Positions 1 through 34,109 of a DNA stretch of 34,110 nt are shown in pieces. Position 1 is the first letter of the stretch. The number at the start of each line of letters is the position of its first letter. Under the pieces are notes generated by a model. The model was given only the letters and a program-made list of their open reading frames with translations, did no database searches and was not told the origin of the DNA. This DNA is from a virus, in the IMG/VR virus record IMGVR_UViG_3300031281_000005, positions 1 through 34,110 of that record. One strand, 5' to 3'. The position numbers and the translations under genes are program-made.

Positions 1-169
1 ACTCAATCTTTTTCTTTAGTAACGGGAGAGTCTCTACATCCACAAGAATCTTGTTTGCCATATCATCCGGAAACCAAACTCCTGATTGCCCCTGGTACTC
101 TAAACGAACACTTTGCGCATACCCTAGACTACTCACCGTAAAGACGGTTAAAGCGATCAACAACCTCAT
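1..169 (-). CDS. Exported protein overlapping the spanin-like gene (partial, runs off left edge)
   Basis: This frame starts at an ATG at 169, inside the 3' end of the spanin-like gene in another reading frame (41-base overlap), and stays open to base 1, giving 56 visible residues. The N-terminus MRLLIALTVFTVSSLGYA is a textbook Sec signal peptide with an AxA-like site before QSV. The mature part begins QSVRLEYQGQSGVWFPDD and ends in a leucine/lysine-rich, probably helical stretch. There is no lipobox cysteine, so it is not a classical Rz1-type lipoprotein. Position, overlap and export suggest a periplasmic lysis partner, by analogy with the nested Rz/Rz1 gene pairs. The function is inferred. 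The C-terminus lies outside the window. Confidence 0.6.
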   Translation of the reverse strand, partial: MRLLIALTVFTVSSLGYAQSVRLEYQGQSGVWFPDDMANKILVDVETLPLLKKKIE

Positions 170-464
170 CAGTACTGAGCTCTTTGACTTCATTCCTCAC
201 CTTCTCTATCTCCGTATCAACTTTCGCAGACTCATCAGCGATTCGTTGCTGAGTCTTGTCGTGTTCCTTCACAACTTTGTCTGTACCTCTCCGAAGTTTT
301 TCAATACGGGTCTTCTCAACCTTCAGCGCATCCATCTTCTTTCCGAGATAGACTGCTTTGGCTTTATCCTTCTCGTAGGAGACAGCCAATATCGCAGCCA
401 GAACTGCAATGATACCTCCAAGAATCCATACCAAGTGTTCCTTAACCCACTTCAAAGCTTTCAT
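129..464 (-). CDS. Spanin-like membrane-anchored coiled-coil protein
   Basis: This 111-residue protein has one N-terminal membrane segment (about residues 11-30, ILGGIIAVLAAILAV) followed by a charged, heptad-like helical region to about residue 95. That topology matches an inner-membrane spanin (Rz type), which spans the periplasm at the end of infection. It overlaps the holin gene by four bases (ATGA), and the exported frame at 1-169 begins within its 3' end, as in many holin-spanin cassettes. No catalytic motif is visible. Sequence similarity to a named spanin family was not recognised, so the call rests on topology and position. A generic membrane-anchored coiled coil is the alternative. 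Confidence 0.6.
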   Translation of the reverse strand: MKALKWVKEHLVWILGGIIAVLAAILAVSYEKDKAKAVYLGKKMDALKVEKTRIEKLRRGTDKVVKEHDKTQQRIADESAKVDTEIEKVRNEVKELSTDEVVDRFNRLYGE

Positions 465-838
465 GACTTATTCACTTCCCCTATGAATATATCCACATCG
501 TACTTCTTTTTGACCCATTGTTTCACGATGTTAAATCCAACCATCGATATGCAAGCCATCGCGCAGAAATACAATATTTTCTTACCAGCCGTGTCGACAC
601 CCGGAGCAACTTCTCCTTGAGCGATGACTCCTACCACAACGCTCAACATGAGAAGAGCCAACGGGTACACCCGTCTGGTCCAGAAGACCCACCTATACTT
701 CGCAGCCATCGCCGCGGTTAGTAGGCGGGTTTTCAACACTTGCGCGACTACCGACAACACCAAAGCATACGCAATTCCCATCCAATGAGGCCAAACTTCA
801 TTTGACAAAAAACTCCACATTTCTTGAATCGTACTCAT
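461..838 (-). CDS. Putative holin, three membrane segments
   Basis: This 125-residue protein has three hydrophobic segments at about residues 18-36, 56-74 and 87-106, and a charged C-terminus (VKKKYDVDIFIGEVNKS). Size and three-span layout fit a class I holin, which makes the inner-membrane hole at the end of the lytic cycle. It is the first gene of the lysis cassette, begins 44 bases after the terminator stem that ends the tail genes, and has a strong AGGAGG site seven bases before ATG. The next gene overlaps its stop by four bases. No endolysin is in the window, so that gene probably lies further left. The holin call is based on size, topology and position rather than on a recognised family. 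Confidence 0.6.
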   Translation of the reverse strand: MSTIQEMWSFLSNEVWPHWMGIAYALVLSVVAQVLKTRLLTAAMAAKYRWVFWTRRVYPLALLMLSVVVGVIAQGEVAPGVDTAGKKILYFCAMACISMVGFNIVKQWVKKKYDVDIFIGEVNKS

Positions 839-943: not shown

Positions 944-1936
944 CTACGCGTCGAGCTCAAACTCAAGCGTAATCGAACAGCCATCTGTGGCCGTGTTGCC
1001 GGTTACGACCTCAACACTCAATCCGAGCTTCGTAACAGCATCCCCCGATTGAAAATCCAATTCTGAATCATCTCCTTCGGTAGGACTGACGATGGTAGCC
1101 GTACCGTCTCCATTATCCGATACAGACGCCGTAGTATCGGCTTCAATAACCGTCTTCAACTCCGCAATCGTTACAGCTGCTATGTCTACCACGTCACCCG
1201 TGCCGGCAACCGCAGCTGCGAAGGTGAGTCCGGATGTCCCCGCTGAAATACTCACAGAACTTCCCGTACCTCGCATATCGGACTTAACACGAAGCTGGGT
1301 ACTCCCGTTATCCTCCGCAGAACCCCCAATGAGAGCCGAATTGATCTGATTAATGACACTCTGAAGAGACGTGGTAGAGCCGGAGAATGTTATTCTCTGA
1401 GCCGTACCGCCATCAATAGTGATGTCGATATATTTCCCATCTTGGTCTGCAACCGCGTATGTCGTGGTATCATCTTGATACCCAGCCGCCGCGTCAAACG
1501 TTGCCGTAGCCGCTCCAACGTTATCCACATCCAAGACCAAAGTATCCGCCGGCGCCAAGGTGAACGGTGCTGACCCTGTAACCTTGGATGCCGGTAGGTC
1601 TACGTTCCCTCCATCTGGATACACCGTGATCTTGCATCCGTTGCTGTCAATCCCTACAAGGGCTTCATACGGAATTCGGTCACTCAATCTTCGATTCCCT
1701 GAAGTCCCAGAAACTCCGTCAGACCCCTGAATCAAGATCTCGTCACTCTGACCCGGTACTGCGGCCTGAAACGCCTTGGCCGTATTGTTCCAATAATAAC
1801 TATCAGAAAGCCGCTGTACCCGCATATAGTAGGCCGTTGTACCGTCGACTTCTGCCTGCACCACACCCGGAGTCCCATCGTTTGTTCCGGCCTGTGATGC
1901 ACCCTTGAATACATCATAACCAATTTTCAACGTCAT
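944..1936 (-). CDS. Distal virion protein sharing a large domain with the tail sheath
   Basis: A 330-residue protein, last of the structural genes and followed by a terminator. Start is the ATG after AGAAGGAG. Residues 1-120 form an unrecognised N-terminal part. Residues about 124-312 align by eye with residues 125-318 of the tail sheath gene at 21155-23623. Shared motifs include DGK..(D/E)(V/I)(T/D)IDGG.AQ.I.FSG, then INSAL/INEQI, then KSD..GT.SSV..S.G.SGL, then GTG.V.D..AVT..E.K, and finally SELDF. The rich Gly/Thr/Ser/Asp content and lack of cysteines apart from two suit an all-beta, surface-exposed virion protein. Exact role (decoration, fibre or baseplate accessory) cannot be told from sequence. 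Confidence 0.6.
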   Translation of the reverse strand: MTLKIGYDVFKGASQAGTNDGTPGVVQAEVDGTTAYYMRVQRLSDSYYWNNTAKAFQAAVPGQSDEILIQGSDGVSGTSGNRRLSDRIPYEALVGIDSNGCKITVYPDGGNVDLPASKVTGSAPFTLAPADTLVLDVDNVGAATATFDAAAGYQDDTTTYAVADQDGKYIDITIDGGTAQRITFSGSTTSLQSVINQINSALIGGSAEDNGSTQLRVKSDMRGTGSSVSISAGTSGLTFAAAVAGTGDVVDIAAVTIAELKTVIEADTTASVSDNGDGTATIVSPTEGDDSELDFQSGDAVTKLGLSVEVVTGNTATDGCSITLEFELDA

Positions 1937-1948
1937 ATCTTTCTCCTT

Positions 1949-2473
1949 CTAGATGACATACGCCGCCGTCAAAGCGGCTGCTACGTGGGCGTTGTTCATC
2001 GCTTTGATGTCCGCCAACAGAGTTTCCAACGTTCCTAAAGTCGTCGCATTCGCTGCCGTGACCGTGTTGGTCGAATCATTGTTGAGATGAACTCCAGACT
2101 CGGTCAAATGAGTATTGAAATCAACTTTCAACTCAGTTGCCAACGTGTTGGCCGTGGTCAGATCCGTCGCGGCCGGAGCCTCGATTTCTTCTGCCGAAGC
2201 CACCGCATGCGCACCAGCTTGTCCCGTGGATGCCAAATGAGAAACGATTTTTCCTCGAAGGGAGTTTACCACTACAAGGCACTCCGCCAAGCCCGAAGGG
2301 TCCGAACGGCCCTCCAAAGCATTGTCGTCGATACCCTGATGGTACAACGTCGTTCCAGCTGCAAGGCTGATCGTGTCATTTCTCACATCCAACAAGTACT
2401 GATGAAGCTTCTTTGCAGCTACACCACTGGCCGCTACGGACAAAATGTCTCGTTTGCTCATATTACGGGCCAT
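1949..2473 (-). CDS. Hypothetical virion-associated protein
   Basis: A 174-residue protein with a strong AAGGAGG site before ATG. The first 30 residues are basic and helical (MARNMSKRDILSVAASGVAA). The middle and C-terminal parts are rich in Ala, Thr, Asn and Leu, with a repeated helical pattern (TLATELKVDFNTHLTESG, TLGTLETLLADIKAMNNAH) that suggests a coiled-coil or trimeric fibre segment. No signal peptide or membrane segment. It sits between the large DUF6519-like protein and the distal domain-sharing protein, 12 bases upstream of the latter, so a small tail-fibre or fibre-attachment role is plausible. No family was recognised. Confidence 0.5.
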   Translation of the reverse strand: MARNMSKRDILSVAASGVAAKKLHQYLLDVRNDTISLAAGTTLYHQGIDDNALEGRSDPSGLAECLVVVNSLRGKIVSHLASTGQAGAHAVASAEEIEAPAATDLTTANTLATELKVDFNTHLTESGVHLNNDSTNTVTAANATTLGTLETLLADIKAMNNAHVAAALTAAYVI

Positions 2474-8344: not shown

Positions 8345-8701
8345 TTATGCGTCGTTCACATCTGCGAAAATCGTAACCAGAATGTTTCCGTTTTCGGGCA
8401 ATGTCATGGTTTCACCATCACCATAATCCACATCAAACTCTGCTAAAAATTCCCCCTCCGTATCCACATCAGAAGCAGCCCATTGATACTCAAGACATCC
8501 CTCATCAGGATCCCCAACAATATTCGCCGAAGCATTAACTTTTTCGACTGGTACTTCAGCCTTCGTATACATAATAAAAGTCGCTCCAACAGCTCCGGTA
8601 AAATCAAATGCAACTCCTTCACTATTTTTAACATTTATACGAAAATACGGCCGCTGAGAATGCCTCTTTTTAGTGACTCTCAAAACTATTGGAGTAGTCA
8701 T
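8345..8701 (-). CDS. BppU-like N-domain small baseplate protein
   Basis: A 118-residue single-domain protein. The sequence PYFRINVKNSEGVAFDFTGA, then ATFIMYTKAEVPV, then GCLEYQWAASDVDTEGEFLA, then VDYGDGETMTLPENGNILVTI follows the pattern of the N-terminal domain of BppU/DUF2479 baseplate upper proteins (FDLTGA, a strand with V.Y.(l)...DT...G.Y.AEF and V..(D/G)G..(t)..P...). That domain anchors fibres or accessory proteins to the baseplate. The gene's AAGGAGG site lies inside the 3' end of the 58-residue ORF upstream. No shaft or lectin part is fused, so partner genes such as the fibre at 7355-8335 may provide it. Confidence 0.55.
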   Translation of the reverse strand: MTTPIVLRVTKKRHSQRPYFRINVKNSEGVAFDFTGAVGATFIMYTKAEVPVEKVNASANIVGDPDEGCLEYQWAASDVDTEGEFLAEFDVDYGDGETMTLPENGNILVTIFADVNDA

Positions 8702-21154: not shown

Positions 21155-23623
21155 CTACTCGGCGACTTCCCAACCACTATCGTATTGAGTGAACGTCCAC
21201 ACCAAGAACTCGCCGGGTTTATTCGGGGCCAAACCGACCTCACCCTTCACCAGCCCGTTATCGATATCGGCCTGTGTCATCGTGCCCTTCGTAGTTCCAA
21301 CCTTCACGTAAAACGCCAGCTCCTTGATTGCCGTTGGGAAGGCCCCCTGCGGCATAAGGTCTGTGAGAAAATCGTCGACCCGATCTTCAAGCTTACTCCA
21401 CAACTTGAAGTTATTGTTCCTGTGAATAGCCCATCGAGTAGAATCCGCGATGGACTTCTCGACAAACTGAAAGAAACGTCTCACGTTGATATAAATGAAT
21501 CGCTTTGTAGGATTCGTGCTCAACGTTCGACATCCCCATACCGTAACGGGATTCGTTGATCCAAACTTACGAATCACATTTATCCCGGCTTCATTCATAG
21601 AACCCGTCTCGTCATCCCGATACTCGGTGGCTACGTCTAAAGCATAGTTAATCGTTCCATAGTCTCCCTCTCCCGCAGGAGCCTCCCAAGGACCCCCTGC
21701 ATTGCCTGGAAGAGAGTCTACTCGAGCCCGAATTCCCATGAGAGCCCCAAGACCCTGAATCTTTCTCTTTGGACTTGATCCAACACCGATCGGATCAAAC
21801 ACCTCAATTCCACCCGCGTACATCGCAGAACAATCTGAATCTACACCGATCACATTGTTCCTAAAACTGACCGAATCAGCACCAGACATTCCCTCTGTAA
21901 CGTACGTAAGATACTCGAAATAAATTCGAGACTTACAATACGCTGCCATCTGATGAATCAATAATGCAGTGTTTCGTCCTGGGGTACAGATCGGCATGAA
22001 ATCTTTGATGGTTCCCCAGGCATAGAACCCTGTGCCGCCGATGATTGACCCAATCCAATCAGTGTCATCCATACTTGCGGTTTCATCAGCTCCCCCCGTA
22101 AACGCAACCGATGCTGCCTCTGTCGCCGGGGTATCAGCTCCAATCCCTGGGGCAGCATCCTTATCCGTAGCCACCACATACTCAGAACCAATATTCTCAT
22201 CATTGATAATGGTTTCAACGTAGTTGTCAGCTACATCCAACATTGATAACCCAATCCAGCGCTCAACTTCCTGAGTCCCATCGTAAATGACTAAATTAAA
22301 CTCATTCGTCTGCATCGTAGAAGCCGCAGCCGTGTAGCCATAAGTAAAGGGAGTGCTCACCTCAATGTAAAACTTAACTGTCGACCCTGAAATATCAGTT
22401 CGCTTACTGGCTACAACCTTGTACTCGGTATGAGTTCCGTCACTTACTGTGACAACCGAATTCTCGTTAAGCCCCGCTAGAGATGGCACTTGCACTTCAC
22501 TATCCCCAACCGTTATATCTGCAGCCAGATCATTCCCTGCTCCCAAAGAGGCTTTAAAGGGGGCCACAATTGCTTGGCTCTTGAGATTATCCCCTGATAC
22601 CCCCGGAGACTTATTGCCGCGATATCCTGCTTCAACTTGAAGAGTATCATACGTGGCCCCAGAATCAGTACCGTTTATGGTTTCCACTGTGAATCCCAAC
22701 GTGACATTCGCATCGGTGAAATCTAGCTCAGAGGTTACTCCAGTAGTCAAAGACTGGATCGTGAACGATCCGTCAGAATTAACAATAGCCTCTGCTTGAG
22801 TAGTAAATGTACCGGTTGCATCACATATAGCTTTCATCTCGGTAGCCGTAACCGCAGACAAATCAGCCACATTTCCCGTTCCATCTTGATTTGTGGTGAC
22901 CCACGAAAGACCAGAATCTCCTCCGGAAACCGTAACGCTACTATCTGTCCCCAGCTTATCCGACTTAATTACAACCTGGTCAGCTGAGACATAAGCCGAA
23001 GCACCCCTAATTTGCTCATTTATCTGAGCAGCCATCAACAGTGCCGTATTCGTTAACCCAGAAAATTCTATGGTCTGAGCTGGTCCTCCATCAATATCTA
23101 CCTCAAGCGTTTTTCCATCGATATCTCCGATAGTATCTGCATTTGAACTGGTAATATACCCCGCGGTACCGGCTACCGTAGGCTCTAGGCCGGCTCCACT
23201 GTCTATAGCAACCGTGAACGCCAAGTCCCCACCAGACACGAAATCAAACGGCCCGACTGCGCTCTGCTTCGACGCTGCAGTTGCCGAAACCCCTAACGTA
23301 CGATGAGTACGCCCAGAAATTCCTACAACTGACGTCCTGTCATCAATATCAGGATAGTGCGCCTGTCGAACCGTTATCAATTCGAATCCACCCTCATCGA
23401 AGAAGCTTTTAGCTTCATACGCCGCATCGCCTCTGCTCGAGGCTTCATAGCCGCCAAAAATCTTTCTCCACGTCGCAAAATTCCTCGTTCTCACGGGAAT
23501 TCCGACTGGGCCTTTTTCGGTTACTGCCTGCATACCACCTCGCCCAGTCTGCGCAGCACGAACTGGACCTTCCGTGGTATTGACTTCTTCTACGTAGACA
23601 TCGGGTCTCGTATAATATGGCAT
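21155..23623 (-). CDS. Tail sheath protein with a large inserted domain
   Basis: An 822-residue protein, ATG after GAGGAGAAAAACG. The N-terminus (YTRPDVYVEEVNT, then GPVGIPVRTRNFATWRKIFG) and the C-terminus (SKLEDRVDDFLTDLMPQGA, then KGEVGLAPNKPGEFLVWTFT) are the diagnostic sheath ends that interlock neighbours. Residues about 125-318 are an insertion rich in Gly/Ser/Thr/Asp that is also found in the protein at 944-1936. A second beta-rich insertion covers about 330-520. The conserved contraction core resumes with the segment NVRRFFQFVEKSIADSTRWAIH, shortened here to NVRRFFQFVEKSIADSTRWA. At 822 residues it is much longer than the usual 380-480-residue P2 type. Confidence 0.93.
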   Translation of the reverse strand: MPYYTRPDVYVEEVNTTEGPVRAAQTGRGGMQAVTEKGPVGIPVRTRNFATWRKIFGGYEASSRGDAAYEAKSFFDEGGFELITVRQAHYPDIDDRTSVVGISGRTHRTLGVSATAASKQSAVGPFDFVSGGDLAFTVAIDSGAGLEPTVAGTAGYITSSNADTIGDIDGKTLEVDIDGGPAQTIEFSGLTNTALLMAAQINEQIRGASAYVSADQVVIKSDKLGTDSSVTVSGGDSGLSWVTTNQDGTGNVADLSAVTATEMKAICDATGTFTTQAEAIVNSDGSFTIQSLTTGVTSELDFTDANVTLGFTVETINGTDSGATYDTLQVEAGYRGNKSPGVSGDNLKSQAIVAPFKASLGAGNDLAADITVGDSEVQVPSLAGLNENSVVTVSDGTHTEYKVVASKRTDISGSTVKFYIEVSTPFTYGYTAAASTMQTNEFNLVIYDGTQEVERWIGLSMLDVADNYVETIINDENIGSEYVVATDKDAAPGIGADTPATEAASVAFTGGADETASMDDTDWIGSIIGGTGFYAWGTIKDFMPICTPGRNTALLIHQMAAYCKSRIYFEYLTYVTEGMSGADSVSFRNNVIGVDSDCSAMYAGGIEVFDPIGVGSSPKRKIQGLGALMGIRARVDSLPGNAGGPWEAPAGEGDYGTINYALDVATEYRDDETGSMNEAGINVIRKFGSTNPVTVWGCRTLSTNPTKRFIYINVRRFFQFVEKSIADSTRWAIHRNNNFKLWSKLEDRVDDFLTDLMPQGAFPTAIKELAFYVKVGTTKGTMTQADIDNGLVKGEVGLAPNKPGEFLVWTFTQYDSGWEVAE

Positions 23624-33236: not shown

Positions 33237-34109
33237 CTAATACGGAAGAGCCGCGTAGAAGTCTGCCTTTACGAAAACCTGAACGTTAAACCCCAAGTCG
33301 AGCTTACCTCCGACCTCCCCACCGGGTGCACAAGACATAGTTGAAAAGTCAAAAGTGCCCATCTCCTCATTGATATACTCTCGACTCACGCTCTTATATT
33401 CCTCGGAATCAACTTCAAGGTCGACGGATACTGTCCCCTCATCATGAGCACCATCTATCCAACTCCAAAGCTCAGTACCACTATAAATTTCGATATCAAG
33501 ATAGTACCCCTCGACATTGACAGAATCCAAACTGATAAACGTAATCCCCGAAGCAAGTTCGTAGTATGCCGATCCACGCCACACAACATCAAATGGCTCA
33601 ATGTCGATCACTCCAAGTTCAACTGTCCCGTATGCCCAAACATCGGCTTCCTGGCACCCTCCTTCAATACAATCCTCTGTACTCGAATCCTGACAATCTC
33701 CTCTCATGGAACACTCAACACATTCACCTTCGAAACACATGATCGGGCAATTCATGACTTCCACGAGATCTTTGCAACCGTCGTTGTCGACATCTAGACA
33801 GGCCATCATCTCGCCGCTCAAGCATTCGTTTCCCGCGCATTCGTCCGAACACCCCTTCGTGTCACCATCAGTATCGGTATCGGTATCGGTATCGGTATCG
33901 GCATCGACATCGGCATCAGTATCGACATCGGCATCAGTATCGACATCGGCATCGACATCGGCATCAGTATCGACATCGGCATCAGTATCGACATCGGCAT
34001 CGACATCGGCATCAGTATCGACATCGGCATCAGTATCGGTATCGGCATCGACATCGGCATCAGTATCGACATCGGTATCGGCATCGACATCGGCATCAGT
34101 ATCGACATC
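33237..34109 (-). CDS. Asp-repeat, cysteine-rich surface-type protein (5' end beyond right edge)
   Basis: The minus frame is open from 34109 to TAG at 33237 (290 residues seen, no start in window). First come 81 residues of alternating Asp and Val/Thr/Ala, then about 68 residues with 12 cysteines ([20 protein letters not shown], including the DVDNDGC loop that resembles a calcium-binding thrombospondin-3 type motif), then about 140 beta-rich residues ending [17 protein letters not shown] (DT/DA/DV)n linker next to CxxEC-rich modules is common in secreted lipoproteins of Myxococcota and Bradymonadota. It is either host flank or a phage-carried surface gene. A TTG at 33821 gives a shorter frame but is not a convincing start. 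Confidence 0.65.

Follow-up and report, generated by a model that had tools for sequence, protein, structure and literature searches.

Profile comparisons place a module of about 200 residues in many unrelated phage virion proteins, among them one in which the insertion site varies. We consider it probable that this is a promiscuous surface module, inserted in loops and resembling the Flagellin-IN and FliD D3 domains, which spreads among virion genes and is displayed for weak adhesion and/or stabilisation. In the window, that is, the whole stretch of 34,110 nucleotides of viral DNA analysed here (IMG/VR record IMGVR_UViG_3300031281_000005), the module is carried by P0001, the last gene before the lysis genes, and by the tail sheath gene P0002.

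Module anatomy in P0001 and the tail sheath

P0001 (944..1936, minus strand) encodes 330 aa and P0002 (21155..23623, minus strand) 822 aa. We identify P0002 as the contractile tail sheath from its matches to PHROG 23 (E 3.5e-33) and to PDB sheath chains (9ezm, E 3e-38), in which the sheath core and C-terminal domain are found; its score against Pfam Phage_sheath_1C, 26.7 bits, is slightly below the cut-off of 26.9. The initial annotation had noticed a domain common to the two proteins, and this similarity is confirmed. BLASTP aligns residues 116-313 of P0001 with residues 117-318 of the sheath at 39% identity over 205 positions (52% positives, 97.8 bits, E 2e-26), and, compared with the window's own record, P0001 matches two places only, itself and the sheath (E 1.4e-25). 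P0001 124-312 and sheath 125-318 reach a local alignment score of 279, whereas 2000 shuffles have a mean of 55.8 (sd 9.6) and do not exceed 102; at z = 23, low-complexity composition is therefore no explanation of the similarity. The motifs quoted for the pair (DGK..(v/i)IDGG.AQ.I.FSG, KSD..GT.SSV and SELDF) are present as described. The coordinates given for sheath residues 125-318, 22670-23251, are exact, while P0001 residues 124-312 correspond to 1001-1567, so that the limit of 992 given for them lies 9 bases (3 residues) too far.

With limits taken from module-free relatives, the P0001 module covers residues about 111-312 (1001..1606, minus strand). It is preceded by an old part, residues 1-110 (1607..1936, minus strand), and followed by an old last strand, residues 313-330 (947..1000, minus strand). 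Within the module, an inner IN-like unit (about residues 152-247; 1196..1483, minus strand) is recognised by the halfA profile at 119.8 bits and by the A5 profile at 1193-1471 (E 1.9e-28). It separates the two pieces of an outer IN-like unit, a beta hairpin (1484..1567, minus strand) and a helix with strands (1001..1195, minus strand). The sheath module (about residues 114-322; 22658..23284, minus strand) lies between 'GGFELITVRQ' and 'EAGYRG..SPGV.G', and its inner unit (about residues 155-250; 22874..23161, minus strand) matches the halfA profile at 104.9 bits and the A5 profile at 22871-23158 (E 9.9e-24).

An AlphaFold2 model of the P0001 module, built with the old part outside it, has a pLDDT of about 98 over most of its length and gives the order strands, helix 191-201, strands, helix 257-267, strands. 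The sheath model is moderate (mean pLDDT 64.6), with its module elements in the same order. When the pieces of the outer unit are joined, hhalign matches it to the inner unit with probability 95 (E 3.5e-8, 78 columns, 28% identity). Unjoined, the first hairpin of the outer unit matches the inner hairpin at 3.3e-6, and the profile of its second piece matches the inner units of loci L003 and L053 at 7e-7 and 4e-7, respectively. Profiles and models together point to a module in which one beta-hairpin/helix/beta-hairpin unit is lodged in the hairpin-helix loop of another, homologous one. Open nesting is seen in L072 and L086, where model positions 1-40 are followed by a complete unit and then by positions 37-95 of the first, giving a split at ~37-40. 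In L052, a module appears to sit inside a module, the contig ending within it. The conserved positions of the module look structural (G, T, D and hydrophobic residues) and carry no catalytic signature.

Empty sites and relationships among modules

In four related phages (G001, G004, G006 and G008), the P0001 orthologue is without the module. These proteins are about 122-130 residues long, are 42-49% identical to the first 110 residues of P0001, and end in a strand, 'GDTPSSAGVAMTLAFKP', that matches the last residues of P0001, 'GNTATDGCSITLEFELDA'; for alignment purposes only, the module was left out of the P0001 and cement sequences. In the three readable neighbourhoods (G004, G006 and G001), the module-free gene lies next to a relative of the window's holin-like membrane protein (461..838, minus strand), assigned by sequence comparison. 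In G004, G006 and G008, it is preceded by a repeat-type 'NAHR..VH' protein, like the upstream neighbour of P0001 in the window (174 aa; 1949..2473, minus strand). Since module-free orthologues thus occur in synteny, the module appears to have been inserted into a pre-existing small gene, and the earlier proposal that a sheath domain had become a separate distal protein does not hold. The simplest reading of these alignments is that P0001 is an old gene of ~128 aa that has taken up ~200 residues in the loop leading to its last strand. The insertion would most simply be placed in the window's lineage, because all four orthologues are empty and no other module-bearing P0001 was found among the related contigs, the rest of which are too short for the place or give no match. 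The sheath carries the module in 4/4 of the phages with a module-free P0001. The old part of P0001 has no match in PDB and no PHROG match under 0.24, and the GC of the insert gives no foreign mark (0.523 vs 0.517).

Several minor features adjoin this locus. A weak candidate for an Rz-like spanin lies at 129..464 (minus strand; PHROG 6197, E 0.0013). G001 has two nearby module-free P0001 copies (L099; G001:59881-62040), their open reading frames being 132 and 153 codons long. The repeat protein just upstream of P0001 belongs to a family marked by 'DxTNxV..ANATDLATA..LANELKxDYNAHR', whose members in relatives are long, over 480 aa (L096 2-1459; L097 1004-2482).

The initial annotation ascribed the two copies in the window to domain duplication and shuffling, and of these the shuffling is borne out. 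The P0001 module is 51-64% identical to sheath modules of other phages (L014, L013, L012 and L005) and 54-57% identical to those of the capsid proteins L004 and L006, so that, on sequence identity, its nearest relatives (50-64%) lie in other phages, in sheaths and in capsid proteins. Duplication within the genome would mean that the P0001 module was copied from the module of its own sheath, whose copy then diverged fast. Both copies do lie in one genome, and a joint clade of P0001 with the sheath modules of its own lineage is not rejected (AU p 0.129). However, identity reaches 64% with the L014 sheath and 57-58% with L013 and L005, but 39% with the own sheath, and the free tree does not group P0001 with its own sheath, placing it instead in a weakly resolved region with sheath modules around it. 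We therefore regard a simple duplication from the own sheath as quite improbable, and it is not our preferred reading of the sequences. The same tree rejects a single clade of the cement modules (AU p 4e-5) and of the modules of the two gpD-like proteins (AU p 3e-9). The sheaths of L007 and L014 are 27% identical in the body and 51.5% in the module; with the module closer than the body, an exchange of modules between divergent sheaths is indicated. Among the sheaths of the window's lineage the reverse is found, the module being less conserved (44%) than the body (57%).

Containers and flagellar kin

By profile, we located the module in several sheath lineages (P0002-like; L007, L053 and L093; L047; L084), in a cement-like protein, in gpD-like decoration proteins and in P0001, and scans with the module and with the inner unit added further viral loci. 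Container families were defined by PHROG 23, 15814 and 17610 for sheaths, PHROG 673 (4e-10) for cement, and PF02924 (0.002-0.006) and PHROG 49 (2e-6) for decoration. The ~95-residue inner unit also occurs in sheaths of PHROG 205 (3e-13) and PHROG 165 (5e-110), and an IN-like unit is carried by a protein of PHROG 6 (baseplate wedge; 2e-23). A further protein has the inner unit N-terminal to a part that matches the head-tail adaptor PHROG 442 (2e-8), a match that probably places the unit in the connector as well. The module is thus no speciality of the sheath, as had been supposed; the accompanying suggestion to look in flagellar proteins proved fruitful.

The cement-like container has ~330 residues (L004, L006, L029-L036, L041-L044 and L085). 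Its PHROG 673 label, 'head scaffolding', conflicts with its position and annotation: the N-terminal part matches an Arthrobacter 'head fiber protein' and the KPP23 'virion protein' ORF086, and in L004 the gene next after the container encodes a major head protein (PHROG 1005, 3e-79). KPP23 ORF086 (133 aa), which immediately precedes the major capsid protein, belongs to the same container family but has no module, and is hence an empty site. The insert lies near the C-terminus, at about residue 94, in L029, L006, L004 and L085 and mid-protein, near residue 54, in L048; two different positions within a single family mean independent insertions. Decoration proteins of the lambda gpD type (PF02924; PHROG 49) are a container here, with Pfam matches below the cut-off, whereas known gpD proteins have no such insert. 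Those with inner or double units are L057 and L072 and, judged by eye, L037, L046, L049, L050, L065, L068, L070 and L086. In a PHROG 165 sheath (L075 3-1883) there are two inner units, one of them inside what looks like the native IN-like domain of the sheath.

The reference collections hardly cover the module. A search of 50,697 GenBank phages with P0001, the full module and the inner unit gave no match at useful scores, NCBIfam has no family for it, and Pfam barely touches it. In PDB, P0001 found nothing meaningful, and the sole match of the A1 profile, TolB at 0.17, is not meaningful either. We also dismissed Pfam SusE matches (0.004 and 0.0002), which are below the cut-off, and PDB SAKe6 matches (6e-5 and 9e-5), which are sums of five weak repeats. 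The 'BppU-like' label given by eye to L054:3788-4519 was dropped, as comparison with Pfam and PHROG found no family.

The Pfam family nearest to the unit is PF07196 (Flagellin_IN), known from FliD and other flagellar hook proteins. One inner unit matches it at 2.4e-5, a baseplate protein (L054:2-883) exceeds its cut-off (24.1 vs 22.7 bits), and the L034 sheath falls just below it at 22.0 bits. Neither P0001 nor P0002 matches at E up to 1, nor does any of the 15 A1 members. For most members, the kinship is weak in score. The Pfam model covers 55 positions, whereas the units described here nest in one another and lie within virion proteins. A genome scan yielded 10 loci with the A5 profile and none with A2, A1 being too diverse for scanning. 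Among bacterial genomes, the unit was found in flagellin of Hyphomicrobiales (with Flagellin_N/C), in FlgE and FlgK of Planctomycetota, and in sheath-like proteins of Polyangia, Polyangiaceae, Terriglobia and Roseibium assemblies. One Hyphomicrobiales assembly has two adjacent flagellin genes (L106 6220-7377 and 7656-8813), both with the unit in their central region.

The only meaningful relative of solved structure is the XM1 sheath gp6 (PDB 7kh1), whose residues 124-184 match the inner-unit profile at E 5e-4. The insertion domain of this sheath is described by its authors as similar to FliD D3, unique to XM1 and perhaps host-derived (PMC10457771). It is likewise an insert in a sheath, likened here by sequence profile alone; the module of the present study differs in being a nested double unit common to many virion proteins of many phages. 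In the mostly open-access part of the literature, we found no described module of this kind beyond XM1.

Proposed spread and function

Recombination between phage structural genes would be the means by which the module spreads; its two ends would fold close together, so that it could drop into an exposed loop and leave the host protein undisturbed. Most containers sit on the outside of a polymer, which favours an accessory surface domain, and it is from the identities of the containers that we read surface exposure. Display would be in high copy outside the sheath and capsid, and in one or few copies at the distal tail through P0001. By analogy with what has been proposed for phage Ig-like domains, the most likely function is that of an exposed, high-copy accessory domain for weak, general adhesion to the host or to extracellular polymers and/or for stabilisation of the surface lattice. 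The decoration module on the tail surface proposed in the initial annotation accordingly stays the best functional reading, with the same conditional standing; for its idea that the two copies dock onto each other, we found nothing in support. The head-tail adaptor-like container, which has no obvious site of display, counts against a surface module.

Ig-like domains are the textbook promiscuous surface domain of phages, and the present module would be a second one beside them, with a different predicted fold. Ig-like domains occur on surface proteins of unrelated phages and are proposed to bind surface carbohydrates weakly (Fraser et al. 2006, as cited in PMC9230969 and PMC10684548). The likeness is in the mode of spread only: instead of an Ig beta-sandwich, we predict self-nesting hairpin-helix-hairpin units with two helices, and the module has no significant match to the Pfam Ig families (Ig, FN3, BIG). 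A survey of sheaths describes extra domains placed away from the tube and suggests adhesion or stability as their role (PMC9230969).

Two other accounts of the module have to be weighed against a displayed accessory domain. The modules might act mainly as cement, touching neighbouring subunits and stabilising sheath rings and capsid. Inserts are frequent in cement, gpD-like decoration and sheath proteins, and a stabilising effect on the sheath disk has been proposed for extra sheath domains (PMC9230969). However, the units in P0001, the baseplate-type protein, flagellin, FlgE and FlgK have no common neighbour, and the different sites within one cement family would need different contacts, so that we hold this account to be somewhat unlikely. 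A serious rival, although in our judgement an unlikely one, is that the module is a neutral or selfish passenger, tolerated in exposed loops and spread by recombination without benefit to the phage. Its many containers and several sites, its nesting into itself, the P0001 insertion seen in one lineage only and the lack of a catalytic signature all fit a passenger. Against this, many divergent phages keep the module intact and in frame and, in the sheath, at the same site, and ~200 residues are costly in proteins of many copies, where a useless insert is expected to be lost. We favour the displayed accessory domain. A further-reaching version of it, possible if somewhat doubtful, is that a so far unnamed self-nesting module common to virions and flagella moves between structural genes, lays copies inside copies, and gives head, tail and tip the same adhesive surface.

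The module is found in proteins of the head, the tail and probably the connector, nests in itself, and would have an ancestry in common with flagellar inserts. With the empty sites, and with a container that was entered at two different places, one can follow step by step how a domain is acquired, and a clean test of the accessory-domain role becomes possible.

Three further features of the window were recorded. A small tail protein (8345-8701) gives a BppU N-terminal-like match of 23.0 bits, the cut-off being 23.1. Beyond the terminase, 33237-33821 encodes a cysteine-rich, motif-bearing protein that is unlike a virion gene and might be a host-derived or cargo gene. At the contig end (33866-34110) lies a tandem array with a 48-base unit in 4.8 copies (92% matches) and an 18-base unit in 13 copies, which reads through on the minus strand as a PM(S/P)I(L/P)M repeat.
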